Source: Tribonema minus
Taxonomy: Eukaryota > Sar > Xanthophyceae > Tribonematales > Tribonemataceae
DNA: 64,000 bases
Direction: 5' to 3'
Assembly: GCA_017506865.1 (NCBI GenBank)
Contig: JAFCMP010000525.1
Location: 1,488,001 to 1,552,000, forward strand
The notes below the pieces were generated by a model. That model was given only the letters and a program-made list of their open reading frames with translations. It made no database searches and had not been told where the DNA came from. Shown in pieces: positions 210 to 64,000 of the stretch; positions within the stretch are counted from its first letter, which is position 1, and the number at the start of each line of letters is the position of its first letter. Made by a program: the position numbers and the translations under genes.

Positions 210-3200
210 CTTGCGCACGGCGCCGCCCACGGGCGCGTCCGCGTACGCGCGCGCGAGCCCCGCCAGCATCGCCCCGCTGCGCGCGCACAGCGCAAAGTAC
301 AGCGCGAGGCGCCGCCGCGCCTCGAGCTCCGTCTCCGGCTCCGCCTGCCAGCCCATGTCCGCGCGCCGCTGCGCCGCGCGTCGCGCCGCCGCCGCCCCAG
401 TGTCGCCGCCCTGCGGCGCGCCGGCGGCGCCGCCGGGCTGCGGCGCGAGGCCGTCGTCCTCATCCTCGTCGAAGTCGAGCTCGGTCTCGTCCTGCGTGCG
501 GCAGCCATGCGGGTGGCAGCGGCGGTGGTAGGAGTCAGTGGCGGCGGCGCGCTGCATCGTGGTAACGCCATTCATATTTAATTTGTGCTTGGCAACGAGA
601 GAGGCAATGAATGCTGCGGTGCCATGCCGTCATCCTCGTCCTCGTCGAAGTCGAGCTCAATCTCGTCCTGCGCGGGGGCGGCGGCGACGGCGCATGCGCA
701 GCGCAGCGGCAGCAGCGCAAGTAGAAATCATTGGCGGCGGGCACCGCATCACGGTGCATGTATGCTTGCATAGAGAGAGGGGGGGGGGAGAGAGAGAGAG
801 AGATGAATGTGCGCCGCCATGCTATTCCCGTCCGCATCGAAGTCGTGCTCCGGCTCGTCTTGCGAGCTGCCGGGGCTGCGGCAGCGGTGGCGGCGGCGGC
901 GGCGAGTGCCGGTGGCAGCGCAGTGCTGCGCCGGTGCGTCCAAGCGCACTGCTGCCGCAACGAGCGGTGACGAGGGGGGACGAGTAGAGAGCTAGCAGAC
1001 GACGCAGTGCGACGAGCGAGAGCGGCGAAGGCTGACTGCAGCGCCGACCTGACCCTAACCGTAACCCTAACCCTAACCCAGCGCCGCAGCACGCGCTGTC
1101 GGCTGTGTTGAAGACGAGCGCGGCTGCTGACCACGCAACTGTGCGAGCCACGCAGAGACGCGAAAAATAAGGCATCATGCCCACGCTTGTTGTGTGCGTT
1201 GAAGATAGCAGCGCGAGGCGACACGCACATGTCATCGACCATTCTGCGACGCGAGCGGAGGCGCCTCAGTGCCGCCGGCGCTGCCGCCGCAGCGGCCACC
1301 GCCTCGCACACAGACCAGCGGCACGGCGATGCCACGGGAGGACAGTCACCTGAGGCTTCGGCGCTGTGGCCTGAGCGCTGCCGCTGCCACCGCCGCCACC
1401 GTCCGCGGCGTGCGCCCTGGCGGGCAGCGCGCTCTCCAGCGCGTCGCGCGCAAACTCCTCCACCGCCGCGCGTAGCGACTGCCGCGGCCACAGCATGTTG
1501 GCGACGAGCCGCACGGCCTTAGTGCGCACCTGAGGCAAGCGGCGGCGGTGGCGGCGGCGGCGGCGGCGGCGGCGCTGAGCGAGAGGCGAACGGTTTTCAT
1601 TGTGTGACGTTTCGAACACGGTCTGGAGCATGTTGTGCACAGCTTTGCACTTCAAAAGATCCTGAGTGCTGAAAACGCATTTGTGGACAGCTGACGAGTA
1701 AAACTCATTCACACGGCAGTACATCATGTGGCTGACTTTATGCAGGTGTTGCACACCTCCATGTTGCTGTGAAGTGCGTTGATGCATCTCTGTGCCTTTG
1801 TGGCACGTGAAGCGCAGCTGACATGCGGCACCTACTGTATACTTCAACAGCAGCATACGTAGTTCAACATGGAAGTACTGGTGACCCACCTCCGTGCTCT
1901 TGCGGCACGCAGCTGAGCGTGCAACGCGCGCCGTATATATGCACACTTTGGTGTTGAAGTAGTATCATCCGCTGCCGCTGCCGCCGCCCGCAGCAGCGGT
2001 GCCGCCGCCCGCAGCAGCGGTGGCGGCAGTGACACGCTGTGCGCTATTGCGGCACGTGAAGCGCAGCGCGGCGCGTGCCGTCAACAGTACTTCACGAAGT
2101 ATTTCAGAAGCATAAGCACTTCACCTTTGAACTTGTACTGTACAGCAGTGACGCACCTCCGTGCTCTTGTGGCACGTGAAGCGCAGCGCGGCGGACAGCC
2201 ACGCGGCGCGCACCGTGAATCATTATACTTCAATGGTTGAACCAGATGTTTGTCTGTTGAGCATAAAGCGTTTACAGAAGATCACAGAAATCCCAAAACT
2301 GCATTAACTTAATACAATCCTGTCAGAGTTATGGAACAGACCTCGGTGCTCTTGTGGCATGTAAAGCGCAGCGCGGCGGACAGGCACGCGGCGCGCGCCG
2401 TGGGTTTGTAGAACACCAGGTCGCGAAGGCACACGAGGCCCGTCTGTATCTCGTGGCTGTCAGTCCCCCTGCAGCACGTGCAGCCGACAGCAGCGGAGAG
2501 CGCATTCCGATGCAGCAGCGCGTGTGAGGAAGAAGTTGTGCGCCTTGTTGTCTACATTGTATCAGTGCGGAGCGATTCTGAAAGACAGAGCTGCAAAGAC
2601 TTCCTCGGAGAACGCGACACACAGAGGATGTCCTCAGTGGACACGACGCATCTGACGGGCAGCCATCCTGTCGCGGTCGCACTCGCGTGTGCCAGCCATG
2701 ACGCATCATGACTTTGCGTGCTGCGTCGGCGCAGTGAGGCGGCTGCAAGCGCGACGTTGAACCATCGGCGGATGCGTGGGGGGGGGGGGGTGCATCTCAA
2801 AAAACACCAAACGACGTCCTCGGACGATGGTGATCACTGGCCACGACACTGTACCCCCGTTGCCCCCCCCCCCCCCCCCCCTTCGGCGCATCGTCTGTGC
2901 ACCTTGCCCCCTACTCCCCCACCTGCACACCCTCCCTCTCCGCCCCCTATCCACACACCTTGCCCCCCTACCTCCCCATCAGCACACCTAGGCACGCATG
3001 CCCTTGCTGAGCAGTGCCATATAGCGACGCGCATTGGCAGTGAGCCCCAGCACACACCCTTTCCCCCCAGCAACACAGCCTAAACCTCTGCCCCCCGTCA
3101 CACACACACACACATAAACAAACCCACATACATACATACACACACTCACACACCCACACGCGTACGCACGCACACACACACGCACACACGCACACACACA

Positions 3201-6200
3201 CACACAAGCATCCCACGCGCGCACCTGTCGCAGAAGTCGCAGACGAGGTTGACGGCGGCGTCGGGGAGGCGCGGCGCGAGCAGCAGCGTGCGCGCAAACA
3301 GCCGCTGCCCCTGGCGCGAGCGCAGCAGCGGCGGCGGCATGTGCCGCAGCACCGACAGCAGCGCGGCGTCGTACAGCGCCGCGGCCTTCGCCGGCGCGTG
3401 CGCCACCGCCGCCGCCGCCGCGGAGGCGCGTTGCTGCTGCTGCTGCTGCGCGTGCGTGGGCGTCGGCGGCAGCGCGGCGTCCGTCGCCGCGCGGCGCTCC
3501 GAGATGTAGAGCTCGTTGAGCAGCGCCATGGCGGTGGCGAAGCGGCGGCGGTAGTCGCGCGTGAGGAAGGCGACGATCTGAGGCGGAGGTGGGAGACGGG
3601 GGGGGTGGGGGGGGTCAATGGAAGGCGACGATAATGGAATGGAGTGGAGAGAAGGGGGGGAAGGGTGGGGGGGGTTTCAGTGGTGATGTCAGCGCCAATG
3701 ATGACATCAGCACGTATTGACGTGAGCGCCAGCTGACGAGACGCCAAAGCGCTTGCAGGGTGCATGGGGGTCAATGGTGACATCCGCCGCCGTGCTGGGG
3801 CGAAAGCCGCACGGGTGCCGCTGTCATCTGGAACGAAGAGAGGCGGCTGCCCGGGGATGCGCGGCGGTGGTCGTAGGGGGGGGGGGGTGTACTGACATCA
3901 ACGCTAGCTGACGAAATGCCAAAGCGCTTGCGCCAGGTGCATGGGTGCCGTTGTTGCAGACGTGCACGCGTGCTTCGCAAAGCAAGGGGGGGGGAGATGG
4001 GGGAAAGGGGGGGGCGCAGACCCCACCTTCCATCCAAAGCGCTTTGCGCTGCGGTGCAACAATGGAATTTCCACTCGAGCGCCCCATAGATACAGGCCTC
4101 CTTCCACAGACGCACATGGCATGAGTGTGGCCAAAGTATAGCTTGAAGCTGGACATTACATCCGTCTCTACCACCCCCACCTTCCATGCCCCCCCTGCAG
4201 TGCGCCGGAATCCAACTTGAGCGCTTGCATAAATGTATACTCGCGGATACCTTCATTGGTATTCCGCGTGCGACGCACCTCGCGCAGCACGTTGCTGCGG
4301 CCGACCGCTCAAACAAACGCTGGACTCTCTGCCCTGTAACCCGTGCTGGCTTCTGCACACGCACATATCGCGCTACAGGTACATGCACCTACTTGAAAAG
4401 CAAAAATCACGTGCAGTCTTCCGCGCGATGCACCTCGCGCAGCGCCTTGCCGTGGCCAACCGCTCATGTCATCTTGGACTCTAGGCCCTTGCACGCAACT
4501 GGGCCTTGCACTCTGCTCCACCGCAGAACCCCGCCACCACAGTGCGGTGCTTCGGCGCTTCAGCGCGCCTCGTTCTGCGCCGACCTCTCGCGGACGCCGC
4601 ACGTCACAATACACGCAAACAGAGTACAAGTGCAACTGCAACCTTCCACGCGCGACGCACCTCGCGCAGCGCCTTGCCGTGGCCCATCACTCAGAGAAGT
4701 GCTTGACTGTAAGCCCCTGCACCCTGTGCTGCCTTCCACACACACGCATTCTCGCGGTGCAAGTCCACGCATCTCCTTCAACAAAAGTAAAACTTCAAGT
4801 GCAGACTTCCGCGCGCGACGCACCTCGCGCAGCGCCTTGCCGTGGCCGACGCCCGCGGCGGCGTCCGCCTCGCACAGCATGCGGCCGAGCTTGGCGACAA
4901 GCTTGCGCTGCAGCGCCGCGCGCCCCTCCAGGAACGCGCCGTCCTCCGCCTTCACCACGCGCTCGAAGGCCTCGCGCGCCTGCGGCGGCAGCAGCGGCAG
5001 CGACGGCGGGAGCGGCAGCGGCGGCGGCGCGGGTGAGGCATCGGAGGGGACGGGTGAGAACAGTGCAGCGCACGGAGCTGCATCAGCCTAGGTGATCGTG
5101 ATGCTGATGACAAGCTCATGCTGATGACAAGCTCAAAGGCCTCGTGCGCCTTCGGCGGCAGCAGTGGCTGCGGCGGCAGCGGCGGCGGCAGCGCGGGGGT
5201 CAGGGTCAGAGGGCACGGGTGAGAATCATGCAGCGCACGAGCAGCATCATCAGCCAAAAGTAACCGCGATGCCGATTTGGCAGCGGCGGCGGCGGCAGCA
5301 GAGGCGGCGGCGCTGGTGAGGTCAGAGCGAGGGCGCAAATGGCGCATTCACGTAATGTGAGGTACCAAAGGCATCACACGCGCGCGCGCGACGGCGGCGG
5401 CAGCACGGATGAGGGTTAGACGAGGTGAAAGGGCAAGTGCGGACATTGGCGCTGGGCCTGGGAGGGCGGCCGTCTGGGCGGGCCATGCGCCGTGAGGAGC
5501 AGCTGAAGCCCTGGCTGTGCCGCTAAGCTGATGGCCCGCAACCGCGGGCGATCATCGCCACTGTTCACGCCGACGCTGCCGACCCAGACTACCAGTACAG
5601 TCAAGTCAAACTACAGGCTCAGCCGCGCCTCGCTCCTGCGCAATACGCTCGCCCGCCGGAGCTGCCTGCCAAGGCAGTCGAGGCATCTTGCAAGGACGCT
5701 CCAGCCGCTGCAGAGCGCTGCGGGCCTGTGTGGAAGCGCCTTGGCCAGCTGTGGGTTTGCACTGACGCTGGAGCGGCGGCAGCTCACCTTCACAGCCGGG
5801 TAACTTCTAAACTTCAACTGCAACACAAGCTTGCCTGCAACAGGTGGCCCCCCGCTGGCGACAGCGCCGGCGGCGCTACTGGCACACAGGACGGTCACGT
5901 GACATTGCAAACACACGCTCAGAATCTTCAGTACTTGAAACTTCAAAAAGCTTCACTGTAAACAAAGCCGGAGCGGCAGCGGCGGCAGCTCACCTGCTGC
6001 AGCCCCCTGGCTATGGGGTCCAGCTCCGCGGGCTCCTCCTTCTCCGCCGCCTTTTCCTCCTCCTCCACCACGGCCATCGCCTCCACCCCCGCTGCCGCGG
6101 CCTCCCCCTCCCTGCGCGCCGCCGCCGCGCCGTCGAGCGCTGCCGCCGCCTCCTGCAGCGGCGGCAGCGCGGCGCCGTTGGCTAGCGGCGCCGCCTTCGC

Positions 6201-9031
6201 TGCCGCCGCAATCGCGGCTGGTGCCATCTCCGCGGCCTCCACGGCGGCGGCGGCGACTTCGCCTGCCTCGGAGCTCGTCTCGAACCAGCCCACGTTCTGG
6301 CGCTGCGAGGGGGGGGGCGGGGGGGAGGGGGGGGAGTCTGGATGAAACGCCAGCGAAGGATTGGGGCGTAAACCTTACAGTCACAATAGCAGCGTACTCT
6401 GCAAAATCAGGACTTTTAGTTGGCCAGATGGCAGAACGCAGCAGACAATGCTTTGAGATGCGAACTGTGTGGGGTGGGTGTACAGACACAAAACTGAGCA
6501 CTGCAGCGTGTGCTACGCCCTCCCAGTCGTAACATGAAGTATAGAAAGGGTAGGGCAAGGGCACAGACTGCGCACCGCCGCGGCGATCCGCACCTTTCGT
6601 TCTCGCCGCCCTCCGAGTCCTGGCGCTCACGCGTGCGCTTCTTGGACGCGTGCTCCGGGGTAGGTATACAGACACAAACTGAGCACTGCCGTGCGTGCTA
6701 CGCCCTCCCAGTTGCACAGTTGGCGCCACGCTTGTCAAACATTCTTGAAAGGCAGAGCGAGGGCGCAGTGTTATGGCGATCCGCACCTTTCTGTTCTCGC
6801 CGCCCTCTGAGTCCTGCCGCTCGCGTGCGCGCTTCTTGGACGCGTGCTCCGGGCCCGCGACGGCGACGCCCACGCCGCTCATGGCGAGCAGGTCCTCGAT
6901 GTAACTGTTTGCAACAGACGCCGGGGAGAGAGAGCGGAGTGAGTTGGTCCTTGAGCATTGGTCTTTGCATCGGACAGTGGAGAGAGAGGGCGAGCCTGGG
7001 GTTAGGGTTAATTAACTTTGACTCTAGCCCTTTCTCTAGGTCGTCGAGCGTGTGTTCATGTTGGTGAGCTCGACTGCTGCATGTGCCGAGAGCGGGTGAT
7101 CGGTAGGATTGACAGGAACCGGAATAGCAAGGCAGCCCTTATTACCTGCTCAGGTGAGCAATGGCAAATGCGGCCTTGTGCTAACTTACCCCTTAACCTC
7201 GGGCAGGCTTGGTTGTGCATACTACTTCAAAAGAAAAAGATACATCTGGGAGTAAGAACAGTCGTTCTGCCAGCACCCCAGCGCCTCTGCGCGCGACACT
7301 TTGTGCACCGCCCCTTCCTCCCCCCGCTCTCCCCACACCGCCGCTCCCCACCAGAGCATCTTACTACAACATCATCACCGTGTTGCAAGCAGCCCGAGTC
7401 CGCGTGCTTCGAGCAACACCAGTACATGAGCACGTATGCATACGCGCGTGCGTGCCCTCTCGCTCCACCTGTGCACCCACAACGCGCGCATAAACACACC
7501 CTCTCACACAGGCGCACGCCGCCACTCACGTCACGGCGCCGGCGCCCCCCAGCGCCTCCGTCTCGCGCTGCGAGTGGCCCGGCGGCGGCGGCGGCATGCG
7601 CGCGAGCGCTGCCAGCGCCAGCTCCACGGACGTCGTCGCCGCTGCGTCGCCGCCGCCCGCCCCTGCCGCCGCCCACGACGCCCCCCGCGTCAGCCCTCGT
7701 CCGCCCCCTGCGACTGTGATGAGACCGCGGATGGTCGCGTTGGCGTCGACGGCCGCGCGCGCCTTGTCCTCGCCGCCGCCGCGCGCCGCCGCCGCGCACA
7801 GGCGCCGCAGCGCCGGCGTCACGCGCGGCGCGACCTGGGGGCGCAAGGGAAAACGCAAATACAGGAAGAAAAACATCATACTTTACTGCCAAGTACGGTC
7901 TGTGGTATAGCGATGGTGAATGATCGCAGCAGCTGCGATACACGCAAGCGGCGCTCGCTTTGTGCAGCACAGCAACGACGAATGATCGCGGCAGCTGCTG
8001 TGCGGCATCGGACAGCGCTAGCTTTTGTCGGCGCAGCGACGGCGAATGATTGCGGCAGCTGCAGTGCGGCGGCGGACAGGACAGCACGGCCGGTGTTCTG
8101 CGCCGCTGTGAGAGGTGCCGGCGCGGGCCACCGCGGCGGCGACACGGCAGAGCGCGCATGCGTCCCCCACATCAAGGGCAGCATCGTTTACAAAAAGTCA
8201 GAGTACAGAGCAATGGCGAGAAGGATACTGTTCGCGCTGTCAGTCTTGGCAAGCGCCTGCGCACCCCTACAGTTGGCGGCGCCGCCGCGCGCCAAGCGCG
8301 TTCGCCGCTCTGAAACGCACGCACTCTCAGGATACGCGTAGCGACGTCCGACAAAACTCAGACTGGCGGGTCTCGATACACATATGCCTTGGGAGCTTGA
8401 GGCGCGCCATGCGCAGCTGGCCGGCCGCCTCCAGCAGCCCCTCGGGGAAGCCCGCGGCGGCGGTGCCGGGCGTGACGACGCAGCATAGTGCCCCAAGTTT
8501 CAAATACAAAGTACTGGATGCATACCTTGAGGAGCTTAAGGCACGCCATGCGCAGCTGGCCGGCCGTCTCCAGCAGCCCCTCGGGGACACCTGCGGCGGC
8601 GGCACCGGGCGCGACGACGCGCTCCATGGCGTCCGCCAGCGCGGGCACGAGCGCGTCAAAGACGCTCGCCTTGGAGGACGCAATGTTCTGCAGCGCGTTC
8701 TCCAGGACCAGGTAGTGCTTCTTCTCAAAGCTGCGGGGGGGGCGGGAGGGGGGGGGGGCGAAGGTGATGAGCATCAGTGTGGTGTGGTTGGCGTTGAGGC
8801 ATCTGTACCATGTGCAACAGAAGCTAAACATGCAGTTACAGTGTTACCCTGCGCTGTCAGAAAACGAGTTGGGACTCGGCACGTTGTCCGCATGCTGCTC
8901 TTCCCTGGCAGCGATGCACTAGGGATGAACAGCGATGCACTCCGTTTGCAAACACCACCCGAGGCGGTTACGCCACACAGCAGTAGCAGCGGCAGCGGCG
9001 GCAGCAGCAGCGGCAGCGGCAGCAGCGACAG

Positions 9032-9069
<38 letters not shown>

Positions 9070-10347: not shown

Positions 10348-10427
<80 letters not shown>

Positions 10428-12518: not shown

Positions 12519-12807
12519 GGCAGGATCGTGGAAGATTTTGAAGGATTTGAAGTTTGTGCTGTTTGGGCTCCTAGAGGTGCAGCAGCTTCTGTCCGGACGC
12601 AGGCATGCAGCACCTCCCTGATTGCATGATCATGACACTGCCTCAACCCCCCAATGGCCTCCCCTGCTGTGCTAGCTCGAAAAATTGCTGAACACTGGCG
12701 CATGCCCCCCCTAAACCCCCGCGCTCATGTCACTCGCCTTGTGTGTAATCGGCACAGGGACCGCCCTACAGCACCAGCATCAGCCTTAGATCCTGTATCT
12801 TAGAGCC
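12519..12807. promoter_or_regulatory. Divergent intergenic promoter region
   Basis: Only 289 bp separate the symplekin start codon (minus, 12518) from the plastid-protein start codon (plus, 12808), so both 5' UTRs and promoters must fit here. I see no TATA box that I would defend. Confidence 0.55.
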
Positions 12808-19805: not shown

Positions 19806-19981
19806 GTGGTTGTCGTTGCGACACTTTCAGACTGTCATACGACATGTAGATTCCTTACAGCTAGATGCCAATCATCTGGGCTTTTTCGCGCCCTGAGCGA
19901 GAATTAATAAAAAGTACATCATGAAGCGAACATTGTATTTCTGTGTAAACAAGATGGAGTGGTATATGTGTGTGCGCAGCG

Positions 19982-43607: not shown

Positions 43608-46600
43608 CAGGCCGGAGCCGTGCCACGGCGCCATCTCGGCCGACGCGCCGGGCGACGACGCGGCGATGCTCGGCAGCGAGTGCTTGAAGGGGCAGAGGCG
43701 GCCGCGAGTGCAGTCGAGGCCGTCGGGGCACGCGCGCGACTTGTAGACGGCGGGGTGGAAGTTCACCTCCTGCGCGCACGCGCGCGAGCGACGTTGGCAG
43801 GGGGGGCGAGGAGCGCAGGGGCATGTGAGCGCACTGCACTGCTGAGCAATGTGGCTATAATGGTGACAGCTGGCGGCGCGTCAGATGGAGGGCGGCGCGA
43901 GGCGCTCGCGAGGACGGCGCAGCGCGCTGCTGCATACGACGCTGGTGCACGGGCTGCAGTTTCATGGAGGTGGTGGGCCCCCGTGCTAGCAGGCACACAG
44001 ACGTCAGTGGCAACTGCCCGCGTGCACAAGAACACCATCAATCAAGCATGGAAACTGGTACAGCATAAGCTCTACCTACATCCCGCGAGCCGCGCGCTGA
44101 TGATTGAGGTAAGGCTGCGGCGCCCCCATACCTCAACACTCTACAGCATCACCTGCAGAGCGTAAAATAAACAAAAGCCACGGCCACTATCGATCATGGT
44201 TCAGCCGTGCAACCTGCAGCACCCTCATAAAGCACGTACCTCGGTGCCGTGCGCGAACGTGCACGCGTCGCCGGCGCGGCACCCGCCCGCGCCCCCCCAC
44301 TCCCCCGCCGCCGCCGCCTCCGCCGCCGCCTCCTCCGCGGGGCAGCGGCGCGGCCGGTACGGAACGATGCGCGGGTCGCGGCGCAGCGCGTCGCCGCCGC
44401 TGCCGCCGTGCGCAAAGTGGCAGTTGTCGCCGTTGTGGCGCTTGCCGCCGCGCGTGCACCACTCCGTGCGGTAGCTGCAGAGCTCAACCGCGGAGAGGTG
44501 GCCAAGGGGGTCGCCCGCGGCGCGCGCGATGGCGGCGGCGACGGTCAGCGCGCCTGCGCGTTGAGGGGGGAGGGGCGAGGGGGGCGGGGAGGGGGGGGGG
44601 GTAGTGAGCGTGTTTGTGCGTGAATGAAGAAGTGACGTGGAAGTTGCCAGCGACATTGGCAGAGCGCGTTGGGGGAGGGGCAAGTGGGGGGCAGGCGGAT
44701 CAATGAGCATGTGTGTGCACGAATGAAGAAATGACGAGGAAATTGCCAGCGAGGTTGCCAGAGCGCGATGGAGGGGGGGCGAGGGGGGGCCAGGGGGCGG
44801 CAGGGGGGTAACGAGCGCGCGCGTGTGCATGCGTGAAGAAGTTACGAGGAAGTCGCCAGCGAGGGTGCCAGAGGCGCGCGCCATGGCTGCAGCACTCCTC
44901 AACGCGGCTGTTTATTACCCAACGCCCAGCTGTGGGAAAACGTGCAGCTGATCCGCAGTAGAGACATCATCAACCATATGAAGAAATAGAACGTTTGAGC
45001 GCAGAATGAGCCATGAGAGTGATTTTGCATGGTGGCTAAGGGGGGGTAATGGCTGGCGCGCGCGGCGGCCGCAGTTACGGCAGTTACGACTGGCTGGGGG
45101 CGCCTGTTCTTATGCGTTCATGAAGAGCTTAAGGGGCAGCGGCGTATGCATTGATTCATAGAATACAGCTGTTTACAATATTTTTCACAAAGATGGACTC
45201 CTGACGTGCGCGCTGATGCATTGATTACCAGTTGCAGCGGGTGCGCTGGCAGTGCGCACTATGGCAGCAGTGTTCAGCGAGCGTGCTCGCATCAAGTAGC
45301 GGGCAGTACGTCGATGCACGCATCAAACCTGCACACGTCTGGTTACTGATTCATATTTATGAATAAATGCACGAGCCAGTGGCGCGCGCATCGGCTGCAG
45401 CAGTGCTCAGTGTGGTTGTTTGGCGCCCGCTGTGGGGAGACCTGCAGGTGATCACCAGCAGAGCTATTGATTGCAGGATTTGCGACTGCACATGCCATGG
45501 TGGCAGCCACAATCATTTGACCATCGGCATGGGGGTTGCATGCAGTGCTGAGAATAATTTTGGAAAGTGTTATTTATAAACAGATCAGCTGCACATAGAA
45601 TCTTTGCAAGGGCTGATGTGCATTTCCATCAAGGCACAGCCAGCAGAGGGAAGTGCTGATGCTGCATGCCATGGCAACGGGAGTGGTAGACGAGCTTGCT
45701 CGAAATGATGCTTAGCGGGGGGAAATTAAATGAAATGTACGCGGTTACTCCTGAGCCCGGCGCGCTTGTTAACATACTTGAAGCTTGTGAGAGGGCTTCC
45801 ACACCGTTGCAAATTATACTGGCGTGGAAACGCTCGTGACAATTAAACTTTCAATCTCAACAAAACGAAGACGATCGCATCACCGTTACCTGCAGTGCCG
45901 CTGACGTCATCGCTCCGGGACGCCGGCGATGCCGCCGGCGCGGCGTGCGCTGCCGCGGGGGTGCGGCGGCGCGGCGTGAACGACGCGCAGCTGCCAAAGA
46001 ACTCCTGCCACTCCGAGGAGCTGAGGGCGATGCCGGCTTCGCTCGCGACGCGCACGATGAGGCAGTTGTGCAGGTGCACCTGCGGGCAGCGCAAGTGCGC
46101 AGAGCATGCGTTAGCGTCCAGCGGTGTTGGTAGTGCGCGAGCATGTGTGAGGCAGGGTGCGTGTGCCGCGCTGATGTTGCCAATTTCGAGCGCTGCTGTG
46201 CGGCAATGCTAGAGGTACCCAAAACCTCAGGAAATATGCACTTGCTGGCGAGGGCCGCAGGGGCAGCGGCAAGAACAGAGCACGCGCACATCACAACACC
46301 AGAGAAAGCATATGAACAAAATTAAGAAGTACAATTCGAAAGCAGCCATGTCATCCTGCCGTCAGTAGACTCGCACAACGACGTCGCGAGCAGGCACAAC
46401 CGGACCACTGCTCAAGCCGAGTGCTCAATCACGCTCACCATCTGCGACGCCGAGCTGATGCCCGGCAGCAGCTCGCACGTCGCCCCGGGCCCCGCGTCGT
46501 CCGCGCCGCTCTCCTCCTCGTCCTCCTGCGGCGGCGACGGCGCGTCCGTGTACTCATAGCCGCCGCCGCCAGAGTGGAGCCGCTGCTGGTACTGCTGCTG

Positions 46601-52400: not shown

Positions 52401-55400
52401 ACGCAACGCGAGCAGTGCTCAGTCAGCACAGATGCAAACACACATTAAACTTCCAAAGCATACGCATACATGCATAGGTGTGGCATGCGCTGACGGCCGC
52501 CGCCCTACACGCGCCTCCAACGCACTCCAACAACACATTGCGTCCTCTGTGCACACACTGGCTTTTCGTGTACTATCTCTCTCACCGCTGCGCCTCCTGC
52601 TCCAGCAGCGCTGCAAACGCTAGTGCACACTCGCGCGCTCGCACTGCTGACCGCGCCTCCCCTCCCCCCCCCGCCCTACACGCACACCAACCCCCCCCGC
52701 GCGCGCACACTGCTTCCCAAACACTCTCTCTCACCGCTGCGCCTCCTGCGCGAGCACCGTGTTGAGCGACTCGCGGTAGTCGGTGGGGTGCCTGGCGAGC
52801 ACGGCGTCGGCGTCGTGGCACTGCGGCAGGCGCGCCTCCATGTCCGCGGCGGCGGCGGCGATCTGCTCCTCGCGCGACGCGCCGCCGCCGCCGCCCTCGC
52901 GCGGCTGCATCGCCACCATCACCGCGAACATGTCCTGATGGCGCAAAATGGCGGATGGATGCATGGACGTGGGGTACATTATAAGCAAGAGCGCTGAGCA
53001 TCACCAGCATATTCATTCGCTATCATGATTTTTGTAGTCTGGAAGTGAAAAGCACCGCCGCCGCCGCCGCCAGCGCCGCCGCCGCCCTCGCGCGGTTGCA
53101 TCGCCACCATCACTGTGACCATGTCCTGATGGCAGAAGGGCATGATGAATAGACACTTTGACATTGGGCACGTGTTGCCTAAAACAGCTGCCACCAGCAA
53201 GTTTAGTCGCTGTTGTGATTATTTCAAGTGATATGTATGAACCGCCGCTGCCGCCGTCTTCGCGCGGCTGCATCGCCACCATGACCGCGAACATGTCCTG
53301 CGGGCGGAGAATGGCGCGATGCGTGGACACTGACATCGGGCGCGTGTGTTTAGCAAAGCGCTGGGAGCCACCAGTGAATTTATTCGCCATCAGTTGTGAT
53401 TGAGAATATGAAGCGCCGCCACTGCCGCGGCTCTCGCCCGGCCGCATTGCCATCATCACCATGGACATGTCCTGCGGGTGGAAAACCGGTGCGAGGCATA
53501 GATGCATGGACGTTGGGTATGCTTTAAGCAAAAGCACCAGCAAATTTATTCGCAGTCGTAATTAATTGAGGGGTATGAAGCGCCGCCGCTGCTGCCGCCG
53601 CTCCTGCGCGGCTGCATGTTGACCATAGCAGCGAACATGCGTCCTGCAAGCGGCCGGCGGCTGGCACAGCAGGGTAATTGACAGCGGTTAAGCAAGCACC
53701 GGGTTCCACCATTAATGGCTGACCACACATGAAAAAAAAAAACGCGCAATCCTCTTCTTCCGCTATGGCACACGTCAGGTCAGGTATGTCACGTGCCGCG
53801 CACGCCGCAGCGCGCGAACTGCATCGACCCACTTCTAGTCCTCACCCTCGCTGTAGCCTTAGCTGTACTTTGCGAGGCTTCCCACTCAGGCCGACCTGCG
53901 CGGAGCGCGTGCTAACGCCGCCGCCACGGCAGCAATAACGCGCAATTTGACAAGCTTTGGGGGAAAGCGAGCAGGGCACAAACTGTGCCTACCAGCCATC
54001 GCCTCTACTCAGCTGTGCCTAACCCTAGTTTGCTGCCTGCCAGCACGACGTGCGATCTGGCACAATGCCGCCGGCTTCTCCCGGGGTCTTGCGAGAAATA
54101 CCCATTCTACGCCTGGTCCCCGAGTCAGCTGCTCCCGCACAGGCGCGCGTCGCCAGACATGAAGTTCTGCTCAGGGACTTGAAGTGACGCTCACCTCCGT
54201 CTCCGCGATGGCGCATGTGATGTTGGCGTTGTCGTGCATGCCGAAGACCTCCGGCTCGGCGCTGAGCGGCAGCGCGTCGATGTAGCGCAGGTAGCTGTCG
54301 AGGGGCGCGTCGGCGCTCGGCTCGACGCTGCGGTACGTGCCGCTGCGGCTGAAGGCGTAGTCGGCCTGTGCAGGGGGGGGGGGGGGGGATGGCGAGTTGA
54401 ACCATGCGCATTTAAAAAGGGTGTGTGAAGTGTTTGCGCAGAGTCTGGGAGAGGCAGCAGCATGTGCATCACTCCCTGCTTGGGGCCAACCAGCAAGACT
54501 ACTTAAGCACATACGTAGCTGTAGCAGAGCACTAGCTGAAGGGCTAGCATGGAGCTGCGGCTGAAGGCATAGTCGTCCTGCAAAGGGGGGGGGGGGGGGA
54601 TGACGCGTTGAGCCATGCACACGCACTGCATCAGCTCTCACCTCGAGGACTGCGGGCGTGTGTGTGAAGGCCAGTGACACGGGCGTCGCTCGTGCGCATG
54701 TTCCCTGACGTTGGCGACGCAGGGATTTACTTCTAGCAATGTCTGTACGGAGATGCCGATACGTGTGCGATTGCGCGCAGCAATCAATTGGAAGTGCAGC
54801 TACAGCGCGTCTCTTCGTTGTGTCAGCGGGCATGCAGAGGCCAGCAAACATGACGTTGCTCGTGCAAAGCCGTGGTGAGACACGCTGAGACATGCACGCG
54901 CAAGCCCTTTTTACCTCGAGAACGGCAGGCGTGTAGAGTCCGGCAATAATCACATCGCTCGTGCGCATGTCCTTGTCGTCGGTGATGCGCCCGCCGTAGT
55001 TGACGGTGCTGGTAAGCTGCCGCAGCACCTGTGCGCGTGAGCGGCGACCGGCGGCGGAGCGTCACACAAACAATGGTGAAGTTTGATCACAAAGTCGAAT
55101 TCCAATCACAGTAACCAGTTGCCCTTGATCGGTGCAGCGGGAGCGATGCGTGCATGCTGAGGTGTGCTGTGAGGCGGAGCTGGCAAGACTGATGAGGATG
55201 GAGACAGCAGCAGTGCTCAGCACGGAGGGGCGAGCTGTCCAGCACCTGGCGTGTGAAAGGTCGAGAGGTGTGGTTAATCCTTGTACTCCTGGGGGTATGC
55301 GCGAATGCATCATGCGGTTATTCGGCGCATAGAAGTTAGCCGATGACTCCCAGATGACAGTCTGACAGGTTCCTGCCCCCTGCGAAACAACAGCTCGCTA

Positions 55401-56190
55401 GCCGACACTAACAGTGCCAGAGCAAACTTCAAGCACCCGCGCAAGCAGCGACTCTCCCCGTCCTCATCGCGCCCCCGCGCCCGCAGCGCCGCCGCCCCCC
55501 CCCCCCGCGCGCACGCACCTGGTACGGCACGCTCTCGTACTGGTCCACGTACAGCGCGAGCTGCGCGGCGCTGATGTCGAGGTCCGTCTCGTTGAACTCG
55601 TACGGGACGTTCCAGCCCAGGGGGCCGAAGCGGCGGCGCTCCGTGACGAGCGCGTGGAAGAAGCACAGGCCGAAGAGGAGCTTGCGGAACGCCGCGGGCG
55701 CGCGCGTGCGCTGCAGCGCCGCGTCGTCCATTTTGGCGTACGTCGCGCGCAGGTTCGCCCTGCGCCGCGGAGGCGGTGTGTGCGTGAGGGGGGGGCGTGC
55801 AGCTGCGTGAGTTGAAGTTCAAGCTGTCGTGTTTGTGACTGAGAAGAAAACAGAAGGCCAACAAGCTTTCAAGTTGCTGCAGCGCGGCGTCGTCCATCTT
55901 GGCGTACGTCGCGCGCAGGTTCGCCCTGCGCTGCGCAAGTTTTTGGAGGGTGATTGTGCGGTAGGACGAGGTGAAGTTCAAGCAGTCGTGTGTGTGCATG
56001 GAAAACGACAGGGGTTTGGCGAGCTTCGATGTGGCGCCGCATTATTCGTCTTGGCGTACGGCGCGCACAGGTTCGCCCTGCGTCGTGTGAGTTTTTGGAG
56101 GGTGATTTTGCGGTTGAATGAGTTGAAGCTCGAGCAGTTGTGCGCGTGCATGAAAAGAGGTCGGCGAGCTTCGCTGCAGCGCCGGACGCG

Positions 56191-56221
<31 letters not shown>

Positions 56222-59200
56222 GGCAGTTTCGGGAGTCAAAATTCAAGCAGTCGCATGCGCAAACAGAAGTCTTACAACAGGATTGCTGCAGCGCCACGTC
56301 GTCCATCTTGGCGTACGTCGCGCGCTGACTCGTTGTGAGGCATGCATCAGGGCGTACAAACTAGCTGTGCACACGGAGACACAGGGCTTTAGATCCTCGG
56401 CCATGCCGTTCAACTTCAGCGAACTTTCTGACCCTGACCCTTACCCTAACCCTCACCCTAGCATCAAGACAGGCGAAGTCAGGGCGGGGCGTGCGCGCGT
56501 GCGCTGTCTGCAAGACTCGTCTCACGAGCCCCCATGACTCGTGTGTCGGTCTGAGTACCTGATTCCCTTGGGTGGCTCCTTGGTTCTTTCACCATCGGCC
56601 ATGCCGTTGAACTTCCGCAAACTTCACAACCCTAACCCTAACCTGGCGTCAACACTACTCAGCGGCGTCCTCAAAACAGGGCGGGACGCGCGCGTGCGCT
56701 GTCTGCAAGACTCGACTCAACATCACCCGTGACGCGTGAGTCGATCTGAGTACCTGAGTCCCTTGGGCGGCTCCTTGGTCATCTTGACGCCGCCCTGCAG
56801 CACCGCCGCGGGGAACGCCTTGCACGGCATGGACGTGAGCCACAGGCGGAAGCCGGGGTGCATCTTGTCGGGGTCCAGCTCCTCGCAGCGCCGCTCGAGC
56901 TCTGGCATCCAGCTGCAGAGGCCGGAGGGAGGGGGTTCATGAATCACGTGAGGGGGGCGGGGGGGGGACACAAGGAGTGGATGATAGCGTCACACTTGGC
57001 GAGTTTGGCATGGCATTAATACACCCGGTCAGCAGGTTGTGCACTGGCAATGTTGAAGTGGTGTGTTTGAGTTTATCCTGGCAACTAGAAAAGTGTACTT
57101 GACAGTAATTGTAATTTGATTTTTGAGTGTCCTGTTGCTTGTGCCATCGCTGCACGGAGGTTAGGGGAAGTGCAACGTGCGAGCGCCCTGCCTCGGGGCA
57201 GGCGCTCACTTGATGGTGACGTGGCGATTCTGCTGCAGCGCCCAGTGCCCCTTGACGTAACAGACATTATGGTCAGGCGCACAGGCGATGGGAGGCTTGA
57301 AGTGCGATGTGCTAGCACACGCGCTCATCTGATGGGGAGATGGCAGTTCTGCAGCAGCACCCAGTGCCCCTTGCCGTCGACATAATTTACGTTAGGGTGG
57401 GCTTGCAGGGTAAGCGGAGGCTTGGAGTGCGACGTGCCAGCGCACACGCTCACCTGACGGCAAGATGGCAATGCCGCAGCGGCACCCAGTGCCCCACGCG
57501 CCGTGACAGGTCTCACAAGTAGGCTAACAGGAAGATCAACCCTTCAAGTGCAACAGATCTCACGGGTAGGGTGACAGGAAGACCACCGCTTTGATTGCAA
57601 CACGCCAACGGAGACGTGAGGTGCCAGATATGCTGATCGCAGGGGGAAGTGCAGCGTGGGCTCACCTGATGGCGAGATGGCAGTTCTGCAGCAGCACCCA
57701 GTGCCCCTCGGCGGCACCAGCCTCCATCATGCGCCCCGCCAGCGCGCCCTGCCCCTGCCCAAGCGCGATGCTGCGCAGGCGGTCCAGGCAGCCCAGGTCC
57801 TGCGCGAGCTGCATGAGGTCCTTGTTGGGGTCGGAGCCGGTGCTGAGGACGAAGATGAGGGGGGTCGTGGGGGCAGAGTCCTGGGGGGGAGAGAGGGGGG
57901 GGGGGGGGGGGGAGATCAGGGGGTGCCAATGGCGGGGGGTGGTGTCTGCATGACGTAGGTGAGCGTGTTGTGTCAGTGTTTCGACGAATTGGAGTTCAGG
58001 GCAGGGCAGGGTTAGCGTCAGTATCAAATCAGTTTGTCAATGCGTGAGTCTGCAGAGTTCCAGGGCAGCAGTACGGACGCACAGGCAGCGCCATGACGCA
58101 AGCTGCGCTGACCGCTGAGCAATGTGTAGGTGCCTAGTCTAGGTTTGGGGTCAGGGTCAGGATTAGGGTTAGGGTCAGGATAAGTATGTTGATTGTGAGA
58201 CGCACCTGCTTCAATGTCAACCCTCGCGAACACTTTGAAGCATGACATGTGACTGAGGCTGCACGGGCGGCAGACGCTCCGCAAGCAATGTCCACACATG
58301 CGGGCATGATGGAACACGCGTGCAAGGCGAGCGGCGACGGCTCATACGGCGACGCGCACACGTGGCTTGCAAACTTCAGTTGTGACTCACCTCGTAGCAT
58401 GCGTGCAGGTCGAGCGGCGCGGCGTTTTCATGAACGACGCAACAAGCATGTTGGCGAATTAGCATGTGAAACATGTGGCATGTCAACCTCAACTGTGACT
58501 CACCTCGTAGCACGTGCGCATGTCGAACGGCGGCGGCTCCACGAACGGCGCGCCGAGCATGTCGGCGACCAACATGTTCACATGTCACATGCCAACTTCA
58601 ACTGTGACTCACCTCGTAGCACGCGCGCAGGTCGAACGGCGGCGGCTCCACGAACGGCGCGCCGAGCATGTCGGCGACGAATCCGCGCATGGCGTCCGCC
58701 ACCTTGTCGCGGCGCAGGCAGCGCAGCAGGCACATGCGGCGCACCCAGCCCTGCACGTCCTTGCCGCCTGCGCGCGGGGCGAAAACGCGTGTGTGCGCAC
58801 GCGAAACGAGCATCAGCAGTGACCACCGTGCCACGCGCGTCACTGTGAGGTACCGCCGCTGCTGCAGGTGCCGCTGCGCAGCGGCGCCGCTGCTGCTGCG
58901 GTGCGTGCTGCTGCGGCATCGCAGCTGACGGTGGCGTTTCAACGCTGGCGGTGGCACTTCAATGCGTGTTATGCGCTAGCCCCCGAGGCCATGTGGTGTC
59001 GCGGTGGCAGCCATGTGCGCCGTGCAAACGGGTCCGGCACGTGAACGGGCGTCAGCGCCATCACTTGATGTTGAGCAGCGAGTCGCAGCATGCGCGTGAT
59101 GGTGATGTGGTGCCGTGGCAGACGACTGCTGTTGCGCTGCTGGCACTAGCTGTTAAAGTACACCACGGCGACGCATAGCTTAAAATGTCCATTAAGGCTA

Positions 59201-62200
59201 TACGCGCTTCGCAGCGCCGGAAGCGTTCTCCTCCTCAGTTACCTGCAACCTCTGTAGCATCAACATACAAATTCGGCTGAATATCATCCTGAGACGCACC
59301 GAACTGCGTGCCGTCGCCGTCGGTCGCCTCCTGCGGCAGCTGCTTGTACGGCGCCGGGAAGGCCTCGAGCTGAGGCGTGCTGGAGTCGAAGACGCGGCGC
59401 CACTCCGCCGCGTGCACGACAAATGAGTCCGGGCATTCCCTGAAGAACGGCAGGCCTGAGGCGCGGCCGCGGCAGACAGTGCAGGTGCACGCGTGATGGG
59501 CACGCGAGCTGGACTTGTCTTGTACTCATCGAGGTCCCAGACGAGGCAGGCTGCTACACGGTGATGTGCAGCTGAAATGCGTGTACAAGCAGCGGACTGG
59601 AACTGCGTTGCGGCGTTGCACCTCAGGGCAAGGCTTAGGGCTAGGGTACAGGCTGAAGGTAGGGTCAGAACACCTGCCCAAACACTAGGTGCGGTCGCGC
59701 GCGTACAACGCCGTCGGCGTCTTGCTACTGAGGGATAAGCGGAAGTGTTGATTGCATGGCGTGCTCGCCATCGACTGACAGGGCCATCGCGAGCGGGTCT
59801 GCATGAAGATGAAACGCGCATGCAGCGGCAGCGACTCAGCTGAGCCAGAGTGAGTCACAACACCCAAGCGTCTCTGTCACGGCGCAACATGGCGTCAAAG
59901 CGTGAGCAAACATCCGGGCGATAGCACGCACTGTACGCATGCGCGCCATCTCCGCTACGGCAGCTCACCGGACATGGCAGTAATCTCCGCCCACACGTTG
60001 CTCTCGATCCACGAAGGGTCCGGGTTGGCAACGGCGCCACCGCCGCCCTCTGAGAACGGCGCCGGCGCGTTCCCCGAGATGAGGAACCGCCACTCCGCGG
60101 GGTCTATTCTCCCCTCCCCTTGCAGGATCTGCGCGTGGGCACACACGCGTGCGCAGTGCGCGTGTTTGTTTGAAAGAGGTCTGGTAGGGCAGTGTTTGGG
60201 TTGGATTCGGAGCAACTATGATGCTACAGGCACAGTCGAGGGCGTGCAGCGGTGGCTCAAGTAGAGCGCTGCCGCAGCCCAAGCAACGGCGGCGCCGCTG
60301 CCGCACGCTTGAGGACACGGCGTGCGGCACGTGGCGACGTTTATCAGATTCAATCGCAATAAATACACAGAGGCAGCCATCATATGCGTCCATCTCCTCG
60401 AGCGAGCGGCGTTGCACCGCCGCCGCGCCGCGGCGCCGCGCGCACAGCTTCATGCCAAACCCTAACCCTTACCCTATCCCTAATGCACCCTAATCCTAAC
60501 CCTAAAGGTTCCCCAATGCCTGCGTACCTTGATGGCGAGGAGGAACGCGAAGAGCAGCTTGTGGCGCTCAAAGAGCGAGCGGCACACGTTGACGTACACG
60601 CTGGTGGTGAATGCATCGATCAGGCTGCGCAGAGGAGCGAGGAGCGAGGGAGCAGCGCTCAGGTCGATGCTTAGGGTTAGGGCTAGGGTTGGAGATGGGT
60701 TAGGCGGCGCTCACGAGACGCTTCGCGCATGGGCGGCAGCAGAACTTTGCAGTGCATGTGCGCATAGACAGATAGGCATATCAATATCCGCGAAGGAGAC
60801 TTTCAAGTACTTGAGTCAAAGGGTACCGCCGAGTAACGGACGTTGATGAGCAATTCCAGGCCATCCTGCATGGCATCGAAGCTGAAGCTTCACCTTTGCA
60901 ATCGAAGTTTGTTCGACGGCTGCGAGACACGTTCAGGACGACAGTCAGTTAAATGTGGACCTGCCATGTGTCAAGTGCCAATCTGCAATATACACCACCG
61001 CACCCACAGCACACGAAACCTTTGATTAAATAGCATGTACAACCGTCTCTCAAAGCGTCCAAGCCAGCTGATGATTATGACCACTTGTGGGTAATGCTTT
61101 TATCTCTTTCTGGCGTGCTTCTCTACCACAACACGCACAGTGGTTGCCAATCGCGCGCCACCTCAAGCGCTGTACCTGTGCCCATATGTACATTTTTTTT
61201 GAAGCATGAATTCATAGGTCACTTTCACTGGTGGGATCAAGTGCAGGTATACCGCTACAGCCAACAGCAAGCGAGCATGCCTACAGTACACACCTGCCCC
61301 AGCCCTAAAACTAACAGCAGGCGAGCACACCTACAGTACATACCTGCGCAGCCGCCCGTCGAGGCCCCCCTTGCCCTGCGGCGCCGCGGCGATGGCCCTC
61401 ACAAACAGCTGCCTGAACCACGGCAGTGAGTACTGTGGCGCAGTGGCGACGCGATGATGCGGCAGACAGTTGGAGAGCGGGGTCAGCAGCGTACTGCGCT
61501 CGCCGGCGTGGCGATGTGGTGGTGCAGCAGACAGTGAGAGACTGCGGTCAGTGGCGCAGGAGGAGCATGCATGCGATGAGCTCTCGCTGAGGCTGTCACA
61601 CACGCAGGGCGCCGCCTCTGGGACGGCGACTGTACATGGTGACCGGGGCATGGGCAGCAGACTGCAACAGCAGACTTCAACTAGACAGCTGCCTGAACCA
61701 GCGAGTACTGCCAGCGCCGGCGATGAGGTGGCGCAGCAGACAGTAAGAGTGGGGGGGGGTTGTGAGCTTGTTGTGTGCTCTGATGGGGGGGGGGCGTTGT
61801 TGAGGCATCTGAGGACTGCGTTGGCTGGGGCATGGCTGGCGCTCACCGGCTTAGAAGCGCATTGTCGCAGGGACGTGCAGCAGTGACGTGCAGCCACCCT
61901 GCTGCGTCATTGCAGAGCTGGCAGGCCAGCAGGCAGGGCTCACGTGCAAGCGGACCGGTGGAATCGAGACGGCGCTGGTGACACGTTTGGCAGGCGGTGA
62001 TCATCAACTAACCACTTCGAAGTGTATGCAAGTACATTGCATCCACATCTTCAGAGCAGCACACAGGTTTATAGGGATGCCGCAAGTGCTCGTCATGCGC
62101 CTTTTTGCCGGAGAAGCACAGTTGAACGTCCCTTGAAGTTGACGCACCTGGTACATGGTGTCCACGACGGCGAGGTCGGCGAGGCAGGAGTACAAGAGGC

Positions 62201-64000
62201 ATGCTCGCATAATTTCAATTTGGGTATTTTAGAGAAGTGCAGTTGAACTTTAATTGAAGTTGACGCACCTGGTACATGGTGTCCACAACGGCAAGATCGG
62301 CGAGGCAGAAGTACAGCGCATAGTTAAGGTAATTTATAGAAGCGCAATTGAACTTCAGTTGAGGTTGACGCACCTGGTACATGGTGTCCACGACGGCGAG
62401 GTCGGCGAGGCAGAAGTACAGGAGGCTCGCGCGCTTGGCGACGGGGCGGTAGTCCTCGCTGCGCTGCAGTATCTCCGCCTCCGTCGCGACCGCTTCCGCC
62501 ATCTTGGCCTTGATCTCTTCGGATTTCACCTGCAGGGGTGATGTGGGCAACACGGGCGTGGCGTTTGGTGAGGCGTACAACCGGCTAATTGGCACTGCGG
62601 AGCGCTGGTCTCCGCGGGCAGTGTTGATGGGTGCCGGTAGTGCGGTTTTGGTTTTTGTTCGGGCATGTTGTTGGCTGACCTGCCACTGCTAGTCAATCGC
62701 GAACCACGCTGTTGCTGGCTGTGCAACCAACCAGGGCATTCGGCACTAACTTTGCACAGCGCATGTAGTGCTCGGAAAAGGCGTGGCGCTGGGGAGGGTC
62801 ACTACGGAGCACTGCCGCTGCAGGCGACACTGGTATGACGTGATTATTGGGGCAGGTTGCTACCTCAACTGCCACTGCTGAGTCAGAGGGACCTTGCTGC
62901 TGGCTCTGCAACGAGTCACACAATGGGCGCCCGGTGCTCACGATGCACAGTACAGTCAGCAGGACACGCGTGCTTTGCAGAGGCGCGACTGTCACAACTC
63001 CACAACAGCCACGCATGCTGCCTGCGGCAACATATGACCACCTGCCCGTTTGCTCCATCAGCTACTTCCGCCCCCTCTTCTCGTGGACCAGAGACTGCGG
63101 CGGCGGCGCGTGCGAGGAATATGGAGTATAATGCGCACTTTCTGCAGAGAGACTTGAGGGAAGCAGCAGCGTAGCGCCACCGCTCGTGAACCCTTAAGCG
63201 ACACGAGGCACGAAGCTGAGGCAGAGCTCCAGAGGGCCCGTCATGAGGCACGCAGTCGTGGCAGCGCCCTCGACGGCTGGTATGTACTGACGCGCACCCA
63301 CCTTGGCCTCGGCGAGCGTCTCCATGAGCGTCGTGTTGTCGAGGATGCTACTTTGTCAAGCACTTCAGTCCAGTTGTACACACGGACGTCGCACGCATAC
63401 ATGACGTGCATCCCATGGCCTCCGGAGTGCCCCAGAGATCGGGGTAGCTTCAAAGTAGGTTTCGCGCACGCACCTTGGCCTCGGCGAGCGTCTCGATGAG
63501 CGCCGTGTTGTCGAGGATGTTGCCCTCGCTCTCGCTCAGCAGCCTCAAGATCTGGCTCTCAATGTCGAAGAGCTGCGCGTCCATCGCAGCACCGCTCAGC
63601 GCGAGCGCCTCCTTGGCGGACGCGAGGTCCGGCAGCTCCTCGCCGAGAACGGTCCCCAGGAGCTGGTCCTCGAGGCCACCCACCGTGATGGTGAAGTTGA
63701 GCAGGCTGACCTGCAAGGGGGGGGGGGGGGGCGTGACTGTCTGAGTCGGTCACATGTGCATTTTGCAGAATTGTGCACCAGTCGAGCAGCTGGTCCTCGA
63801 GGGCGCCGACGTTGATGGTGAAGCTGAGCAGGCTGACCTGAAGGGGGTGGGTGACACACACAGGCGCACGCGCAGAGGACCGGAGGGGGATATTGGCTGT
63901 ACGTGCCATTGAGCGCCTGCGACCGTGGCGTGCATGGTATTTCCAGAGCTCGTCTGGTGATATAGCTCTAACTGACCTTGACCTGCACCTCCGTCGCGGC
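49452..64000 (-). CDS. DNAH1: Axonemal dynein heavy chain, DNAH1-like inner-arm type (last 18 exons, 978 aa)
   Basis: This is the C-terminal part of a motor that drives flagellar beating. Exons: 63977-64000 (partial), 63474-63710, 62374-62529, 61344-61432, 60528-60624, 59969-60128, 59300-59455, 58613-58767, 57666-57880, 56754-56912, 55519-55759, 54915-55028, 54195-54365, 52735-52934, 51602-51722, 50844-50996, 49861-50220, 49452-49580, in phase throughout. It starts at AAA5 ([52 protein letters not shown]), continues with [12 protein letters not shown] and AAA6 ([71 protein letters not shown]), then the C-terminal domain ([63 protein letters not shown]). [18 protein letters not shown] and [14 protein letters not shown] favour DNAH1, a single-headed inner-arm chain. 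The last exon carries an extra segment of about 18 residues before [13 protein letters not shown]. The exon at 51602-51722 ends with a GC donor. Confidence 0.93.
50655..50880 (-). repeat. Junction array: 3' edge of dynein exon at 50844-50996
   Basis: The exon end (WISGFFFPQ, 50844-50880) is echoed once downstream at about 50670-50695 (core GAAGAAGCCGCTGA-CCAGA on the plus strand), about 170 bp away. Confidence 0.6.
52880..53655 (-). repeat. Junction array: 5' edge of dynein exon at 52735-52934, four extra copies
   Basis: The acceptor and first codons (CAG then [15 protein letters not shown]) recur at about 53090-53130, 53260-53300, 53435-53475 and 53610-53645, about every 175 bp. The intron part of the unit is repeated too (TGCATGGACGT-GGGTA, CACCAGCAAATTTATTCGC, TGAAGCGCCGCC). 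Copies read [27 protein letters not shown] and [13 protein letters not shown]. Confidence 0.95.
54330..54585 (-). repeat. Junction array: 5' edge of dynein exon at 54195-54365
   Basis: The exon start (ADYAFSRS) and its G/C-run acceptor recur once upstream at about 54548-54598 (CTGCGGCTGAAGGC-TAGTCG, then the G run). Confidence 0.85.
54640..54960 (-). repeat. Junction array: 3' edge of dynein exon at 54915-55028
   Basis: The exon end ([16 protein letters not shown] and donor) recurs at about 54828-54870 (partial, no donor) and 54645-54705 (reads [21 protein letters not shown], with CTCACCTCGAG donor kept). Confidence 0.75.
55700..56330 (-). repeat. Junction array: 5' edge of dynein exon at 55519-55759
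   Basis: The exon start ([16 protein letters not shown]) recurs upstream at about 55870-55935, 56035-56085 and 56285-56330. The first copy keeps acceptor and frame; the last has lost the acceptor. Confidence 0.9.
56395..56790 (-). repeat. Junction array: 3' edge of dynein exon at 56754-56912
   Basis: The donor region (GTCTGAGTACCTGA-TCCCTTGGG and CTCCTTGGT on the plus strand) at 56740-56780 is repeated near 56550-56590. Flanking intron sequence (GCCATGCCGTT-AACTTC, GCGCGTGCGCTGTCTGCAAG) repeats with it, unit about 190 bp. Telomere-like words lie in both units. Confidence 0.88.
57207..57715 (-). repeat. Junction array: 3' edge of dynein exon at 57666-57880
   Basis: The exon end [13 protein letters not shown] and donor (57666-57710) recurs at about 57450-57495, 57325-57375 and 57207-57255. 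Copies read [25 protein letters not shown] and [13 protein letters not shown]; one has lost its GT. Confidence 0.93.
58380..58690 (-). repeat. Junction array: 3' edge of dynein exon at 58613-58767
   Basis: The exon end ([20 protein letters not shown] and GTGAGTC donor) recurs at about 58500-58567 (nearly identical) and 58383-58450 (diverged), unit about 112-118 bp. AACTTCAACTGTGACTCACC precedes each donor on the plus strand. Confidence 0.95.
61400..61715 (-). repeat. Junction array: 5' edge of dynein exon at 61344-61432
   Basis: GCTGCCTGAACCA-GCGAGTACTG at about 61688-61712 copies the start of the exon (61409-61435). Weaker GGCGATG-GGTGGCGCAGCAGACAGT units lie between them (61440-61760). Confidence 0.75.
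62140..62430 (-). repeat. Junction array: 3' edge of dynein exon at 62374-62529
   Basis: The exon end ([15 protein letters not shown] and GTGCGTC donor) is repeated at about 62265-62320 and 62145-62195 with very few changes, unit about 106-121 bp. Each donor is followed by the same AACTTCAA-type word. Confidence 0.95.
63290..63845 (-). repeat. Junction arrays on both sides of dynein exon at 63474-63710
   Basis: Upstream, the exon start ([18 protein letters not shown]) is copied at about 63775-63840 as [18 protein letters not shown] with its acceptor. Downstream, the exon end (LIETLAEAK and donor) is copied at about 63295-63350 as LMETLAEAK. Confidence 0.92.

Follow-up and report, generated by a model that had tools for sequence, protein, structure and literature searches.

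Many introns of the yellow-green alga Tribonema minus (Xanthophyceae, PX clade) carry short tandem arrays in which, for most of the 91 junction records that we collected, the duplicated unit crosses an exon-intron junction. The arrays are real and are present in most, not all, of the intron-rich loci examined. We favor an explanation in which small tandem duplications recur and are tolerated since splicing would remove the added copy, while the exon edge, being constrained, serves as a master copy, and we assign this explanation a probability of roughly 60%.

Tandem arrays at exon edges

The window analyzed here is a 64,000-nucleotide stretch of contig C522 (positions 1488001-1552000); the genome searched comprised 158.2 Mb in 554 contigs. 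The window holds a dynein gene that agreed with the deposited 3580-aa dynein heavy chain of T. minus at all of the 801 residues scored, and a predicted nucleotide-sugar transporter (exons 30636-35725, + strand) that is 100% identical to a deposited T. minus protein. The remaining genes are symplekin (-), an ARM-like-repeat gene (-), DUF819 (+) and a CCCH zinc-finger-like gene (-). The names symplekin and DUF819 were taken from the original prediction, while the ARM-like and CCCH labels were given by eye. In a BLAST comparison of the window with itself, all 58 repeat pairs on the same strand lay within 1.5 kb of each other, and there was one inverted pair.

About 25 exon edges had been claimed to carry arrays. 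Junction arrays were indeed found, and our count for the window came to 22 splice junctions: 10 edges on 8 dynein exons (short of the ten or more dynein exons expected), 7 edges in symplekin, 4 in the transporter and 1 in DUF819. The affected exons of symplekin (2, 4, 6, 8, 10 and 12, the last counted from the window self-comparison alone) and of the transporter (2, 3 and 4) were those originally named. Symplekin exon 8 and transporter exon 4 are among the exons with arrays on both sides. The alternation of exons seen in symplekin is not general and is absent from the dynein genes. Both terminal exons of DUF819 had been listed; the first carries a donor-side array, and the array at the last spans the predicted stop codon, where no splice site is predicted. 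The arrays in the window are as follows.

437-882 (-): symplekin exon 12 (210-491), acceptor-side array; repeat pair 437-685/613-882, period ~176
1780-2402 (-): symplekin exon 10 (2342-2468), donor-side array; extents from self-comparison and junction search
4259-4850 (-): symplekin exon 8 (4824-4979), donor-side array, three intronic copies
4961-5249 (-): symplekin exon 8 (4824-4979), acceptor-side array
6471-6853 (-): symplekin exon 6 (6787-6904), donor-side array
8384-8620 (-): symplekin exon 4 (8526-8730), donor-side array, period 138
10602-11159 (-): symplekin exon 2 (10491-10631), acceptor-side array, three intronic copies
22913-23101 (no strand): two tandem 93-bp units with 99% identity, lying 135 bp before the predicted start codon of DUF819 (23237) and away from splice junctions
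23304-23629 (+): DUF819 exon 1 (23237-23373), donor-side array
28573-29219 (+): array running across the end of the final DUF819 exon (28414-28689) and through TGA 28690-28692, its predicted stop codon, without predicted splice site
32317-32513 (+): transporter exon 2 (32184-32379), donor-side array, period 105
32903-33295 (+): transporter exon 3 (33225-33466), acceptor-side array
34014-34440 (+): repeat pair in the third transporter intron; the exon 4 acceptor (34573) likewise gives a junction match
34615-34863 (+): transporter exon 4 (34573-34707), donor-side array, period 129
44556-44878 (-): array abutting the acceptor of an exon (44240-44553) predicted for the zinc-finger gene; lacks an exonic part and is classed as non-edge
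52576-52759 (-): dynein exon (52735-52934; deposited 52734-52934), donor-side array
52876-53653 (-): dynein exon (52735-52934), acceptor-side array, four intronic copies, period ~180
54342-54621 (-): dynein exon (54195-54365; deposited model mapped), acceptor-side array
55710-56325 (-): dynein exon (55519-55759; deposited model mapped), acceptor-side array, three intronic copies
56397-56779 (-): dynein exon (56754-56912; deposited model mapped), donor-side array
57199-57710 (-): dynein exon (57666-57880; deposited model mapped), donor-side array, three intronic copies
58357-58681 (-): dynein exon (58613-58767; deposited model mapped), donor-side array, period ~110
62111-62434 (-): dynein exon (62374-62529; deposited model mapped), donor-side array, two intronic copies
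63291-63519 (-): dynein exon (63474-63705; deposited model mapped), donor-side array, period 172
63658-63851 (-): dynein exon (63474-63705; deposited model mapped), acceptor-side array, period 127

Other repeats lie in the same window. Positions 20118-21278 were rejected as an intron array because the repeats there are coding: they belong to a long exon whose protein product is itself internally repetitive (ARM-like by eye). A ~110-bp dispersed repeat in a dynein intron (63115-63232) has 14 other genome matches at 72-83% identity. The window contains no tRNA or Rfam match. Interstitial TTAGGG-type repeats occur at 1048-1079, at 27864-27914 and in several dynein introns; this is probably the telomere repeat, because among the matches listed for a query from L023 many fall at contig ends.

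Eight loci were annotated with a small gene finder at strict settings, with dynein homology as support. Exons shorter than 45 nt, of low coding score or resembling a better neighbor were excluded (78 of 106 were retained in the minus-strand set of C522). The query for each junction, 50 nt from each side of the splice site, was searched against its own intron. A same-strand copy was found in the adjoining intron for 48/163 donors and 42/163 acceptors; these counts, like the 91 records, include some spurious minus-strand exons of C522 lying over plus-strand genes. No reverse-strand copy was found at any of the 326 junctions, in agreement with the claim that copies keep the exon's orientation, and queries against mismatched introns gave 0.0 matches on average. 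Intron-midpoint queries, by comparison, matched in 11/133 cases in each direction, and exon middles matched their flanking introns in 2/79 and 2/75. In unrelated genes on other contigs, 4/16 donors and 3/16 acceptors had a junction copy, and adding DUF819 and the transporter brought these figures to 7/24 and 5/24, with none on the reverse strand. Two intron-poor dynein loci (C90 and C146) had copies at 0/28 junctions versus 90/298 elsewhere (Fisher p=1e-4), so the process is uneven between genes. An 'intergenic' control (0/98 overlapping windows) was unclean in that the stretch contains a predicted gene, and its mismatched figure of 11.2 was inflated by window overlap; this control was not relied on.

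Assembly duplication was rejected as a source of the arrays since the copies differ by 10-22%. In genome searches no full-length second haplotype copy was found for one 2-kb piece of the window, and for a 3-kb piece of C113 a full-length second copy was absent among the matches listed. A 10-kb piece of C90 had near copies on C179, inside a repeat-rich stretch. The near-identical sequence of C90 and C179, together with equal-scoring kinase matches on C144, C223 and C278, suggests that part of the genome either survives as separate haplotypes or was recently duplicated.

Minimal periods were 62-219 bp in 77 of 79 arrays and 348 and 384 bp in the other two. The exonic part of the unit had a median of 49 nt (10th-90th percentile 21-86 nt), with a few records above 150 nt. 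As a fraction of the period its median was 0.33 and its distribution was non-uniform (KS p=5e-7, n=68); exonic parts are shorter than uniform breakpoints predict, a shortness that the simplest model leaves unexplained. On recount, the exon edge was repeated in the intron one to five times in 85 of the 91 junction records and not at all in 6. Edge arrays tended to cover more periods than intronic arrays (plain medians of 2.33 vs 1.69). Among the largest edge arrays found is a donor-side array at L029 1667-2593 with about eight 116-bp copies. In tandem exon duplication, exon sequence is duplicated beside itself. The Tribonema arrays differ in that the exonic part is mostly a 20-90 nt edge; duplication of a whole exon with both splice sites is not the pattern. 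In 43 multi-copy arrays, mean identity to the exon was 0.909 for the nearest copy and 0.878 for the farthest (28 better, 13 worse, p=0.009), which bears out the claim that copies generally decay away from the exon. The identity, codon-position, period and copy-order measures retained four doubtful rows of the 91 (two over plus-strand genes and two in symplekin) and exonic parts shorter than 12 nt.

Preference for the exon edge

When only intron sequence was used to detect arrays, which were extended afterwards, an exon was reached by 49 of 72, or by 52 of 79 with the extra loci. The spurious C522 exons were removed for this set, in which some of the non-edge arrays, such as 57199-57495, are really the outlying copies of an edge array. 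A simulation of uniform placement passed through the same steps gave 146/517 (28%; binomial p=4e-12 for 52/79), assuming one duplication per intron, copies diverged by 2-25% and exonic parts no longer than 110 nt. Simulated junction queries matched in 109 and 111 of 830 cases versus 71/695 for mid-intron queries, while the real junction queries, at 48 and 42 of 163, stood against 11/133. In the dynein region under the deposited model, 17 of 25 arrays were edge arrays versus a formula-based expectation of about 5. Taken by themselves, the five extra loci gave 3/7 by intron-only detection versus about 2 expected, which is no clear excess.

The exon copy is constrained while both copies of an intronic pair decay, and edge copies are therefore easier to detect. 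The original prediction of junction anchoring holds in part: much of the anchoring is visibility, and a real but smaller edge excess remains. Sorted by intronic identity, the edge share was 8/15 at 85% or above (simulation 61/174, 35%; p=0.11, a small sample; still 8/15 with the extra loci), 27/41 at 75-85% (simulation 64/233; 29/45 with the extra loci) and 14/16 below 75% (simulation 21/110; 15/19 with the extra loci). The excess is clearest in older arrays, and this suits persistence or regrowth around a constrained copy. Intronic identity did not differ significantly between edge and intronic arrays (p=0.20).

The excess might instead reflect a mutational hotspot, in which junctions attract breaks or nicks, for example transcription- or chromatin-linked ones, that are repaired into tandem duplications. 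Such a hotspot would account for an edge excess that persists when exon sequence plays no part in detection, and for the concentration of exonic breakpoints 20-90 nt from the junction. However, the array over the predicted stop codon of DUF819 involves no splice site, which suggests that a coding edge without one suffices, and the 99% identical pair at 22913-23101 lies upstream of a start codon. The most alike class of arrays is also not significantly above uniform placement. Nor is array presence clearly correlated between dynein paralogues: at the few shared intron positions (17), both members carried arrays in 4 of 34 comparisons (p=0.39). We regard a junction hotspot as unlikely, though it deserves to be weighed seriously.

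If, on the other hand, duplications fell uniformly and were recognizable only where they overlap conserved exon sequence, then visibility would account for the whole pattern. Intron-only 80-nt windows did have copies in 10-17% of cases at all seven positions along the intron; the last 80 nt of exons matched in 36/138 cases and the first 80 nt in 27/137. Exonic identity (0.882) exceeded intronic identity (0.771), and its mean square of 0.789 lies close to the latter (second measure; 90 records, chance level ~0.6), as such a model would have it. A purely uniform process does not, however, produce 52 edge-anchored arrays of 79 under intron-only detection, and visibility as the sole cause is improbable.

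Decay of the copies and use of the splice sites

The copies differed from their exons at 163/1576 (10.3%) of first, 175/1572 (11.1%) of second and 240/1566 (15.3%) of third codon positions, and at 764/3410 (22.4%) of positions in their intronic part. If the copy alone changes at constrained sites, the one-sided rate is about 0.107, and two free copies would be expected to differ at about 0.21 of positions; the observed value was 0.224. On this evidence the copies look like neutral relics and are probably neutral or nearly so.

The copies had been predicted to leave decoy splice sites, most of them keeping GT or AG and the reading frame. Retention was confirmed: 39 of the 45 donor copies that aligned keep GT or GC (3 others did not align), and 37 of the 42 such acceptor copies keep AG (1 other did not align). 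It is, however, about what neutral decay predicts. If the copies were instead functional decoy or alternative splice sites or exons under selection, this retention would be explained, as would splice dinucleotides that differ at 8.0% (14/174) rather than the 10-11% of codon positions 1 and 2, a match of 264/280 at splice positions versus 6625/7380 at exonic positions in a local-alignment measure, and stop codons that are somewhat rare (6 versus about 12 expected from single random changes in 470 changed codons). Part of the better match at splice positions is expected because changes in the exon itself also count as exonic differences. The gap is small as well: at the rate of codon positions 1 and 2, about 19 splice positions should have changed, and 14 did. 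Against selection, moreover, the first two codon positions diverge half as fast as a pair of intronic copies, which is what neutrality predicts, and the periods leave remainders of 0, 1 and 2 modulo 3 in 27, 39 and 25 cases, so that a bias toward multiples of three, and with it selection on frame, is absent. At 28 of 30 array junctions the deposited dynein model passes over the copies and takes the exon-joined splice side, with a tolerance of 6 nt at exon edges; the two exceptions lie outside the window. Selected function for the copies is thus very improbable. The putative decoy sites appear to show little or no sign of function, although weak or past constraint may have acted on some copies.

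Intron lengthening and related processes

At least one edge array was present in 70 of 141 introns of the five array-bearing loci. Median intron length was 864 bp with one edge array, 831 bp with two and 623 bp with none (p=0.0005), the four doubtful rows and exonic parts below 12 nt having been dropped from this comparison. The proposal that introns grow by tandem duplication across the exon edge is in this respect upheld.

Tandem structure, a single orientation, neutral-like decay, agreement with deposited models, longer introns and an edge excess are what the genome sequence itself records, and recurrent duplication from a constrained exon edge could link them in the following way. A small genomic tandem duplication with a unit of about 60-220 bp would recur, with an intronic breakpoint at one end and, at the other, a breakpoint that usually falls 20-90 nt into coding sequence of the exon; the first duplication would presumably arise by a DNA-repair route. 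The original splice site, still attached to the exon body, would stay in use in the living cell, and because the extra copy would then be spliced out, it would be tolerated and decay neutrally while the intron lengthens. Later rounds would place fresh copies beside the exon, so that older copies tend to lie farther out. Edges would be favored mainly since selection keeps the exon copy intact and thus a good homologous partner for re-duplication, whereas two wholly intronic copies would diverge twice as fast.

We consider that the arrays belong with small tandem duplications, being direct, head-to-tail and local, though in an uncommon context, one in which splicing would protect the added copy. 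Fill-in at breaks by CST and Pol alpha-primase produces small tandem duplications in human and mouse cells, according to PMC8355091; the likeness lies in short direct tandem copies. The closest single case, described in PMC4974935, is the potato RdRp gene, where one boundary-crossing tandem duplication created a new intron via a formerly exonic donor. In both systems the duplicated unit crosses the intron-exon boundary. In Tribonema, however, existing introns lengthen, many times and in many genes, and the deposited models keep the original sites, 2 of the 30 dynein array junctions departing from the exon-joined side.

The process does not resemble the birth of new introns. In one model of intron gain (a subject reviewed in PMC3443670), an exonic segment that contains AGGT is duplicated in tandem; this is likewise a tandem duplication near exons that turns exon sequence into intron sequence, but the Tribonema unit includes pre-existing intron and the expected marks, an exon tail at the intron 3-prime end and an exon head at its 5-prime start, were each found in 0/137 introns; we give this origin hardly any credence. 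Few intron positions are common to the dynein paralogues (C522, C508, C113, C514 and C146): C522, with 48 introns, and C508, with 23, have 6 in common at 57% identity, hinting at high intron turnover.

Introners occur in other algae. An introner or other dispersed transposable element could be imagined here since a short dispersed repeat is present in one window intron, but no array unit recurs elsewhere in the window or in mismatched introns, nor genome-wide for the one 2-kb array-bearing piece searched, and this origin is just as negligible. Introners do resemble the arrays as a genome-scale source of intron sequence, although they form dispersed families and the Tribonema units are local; a term search of the available text of PMC9860276, which describes introners, returned no mention of Tribonema or tandem duplication. 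Literature searches covering few subscription papers listed no study in which tandem arrays at exon edges are described as a way for introns to grow on a genome scale.

How introns become long without transposons is an open question, and in Tribonema the source of the added length can be read, dated by its decay against a constrained exon, and counted. The arrays also offer a natural test of splice-site choice, as numerous introns contain a second, almost identical site left unused in the deposited models of dynein (28/30) and of the transporter. The edge excess is the part most worth pursuing, whether it reflects a master copy or a hotspot. More tentatively, and at somewhat less than even odds, exon edges may be constrained master copies that repeatedly seed tandem copies, so that intron length ratchets upward in a self-renewing, selection-anchored process distinct from transposons and from intron gain. 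Taken together, the evidence suggests that introns in this alga lengthen by short duplications across the exon boundary, hidden from selection by splicing.
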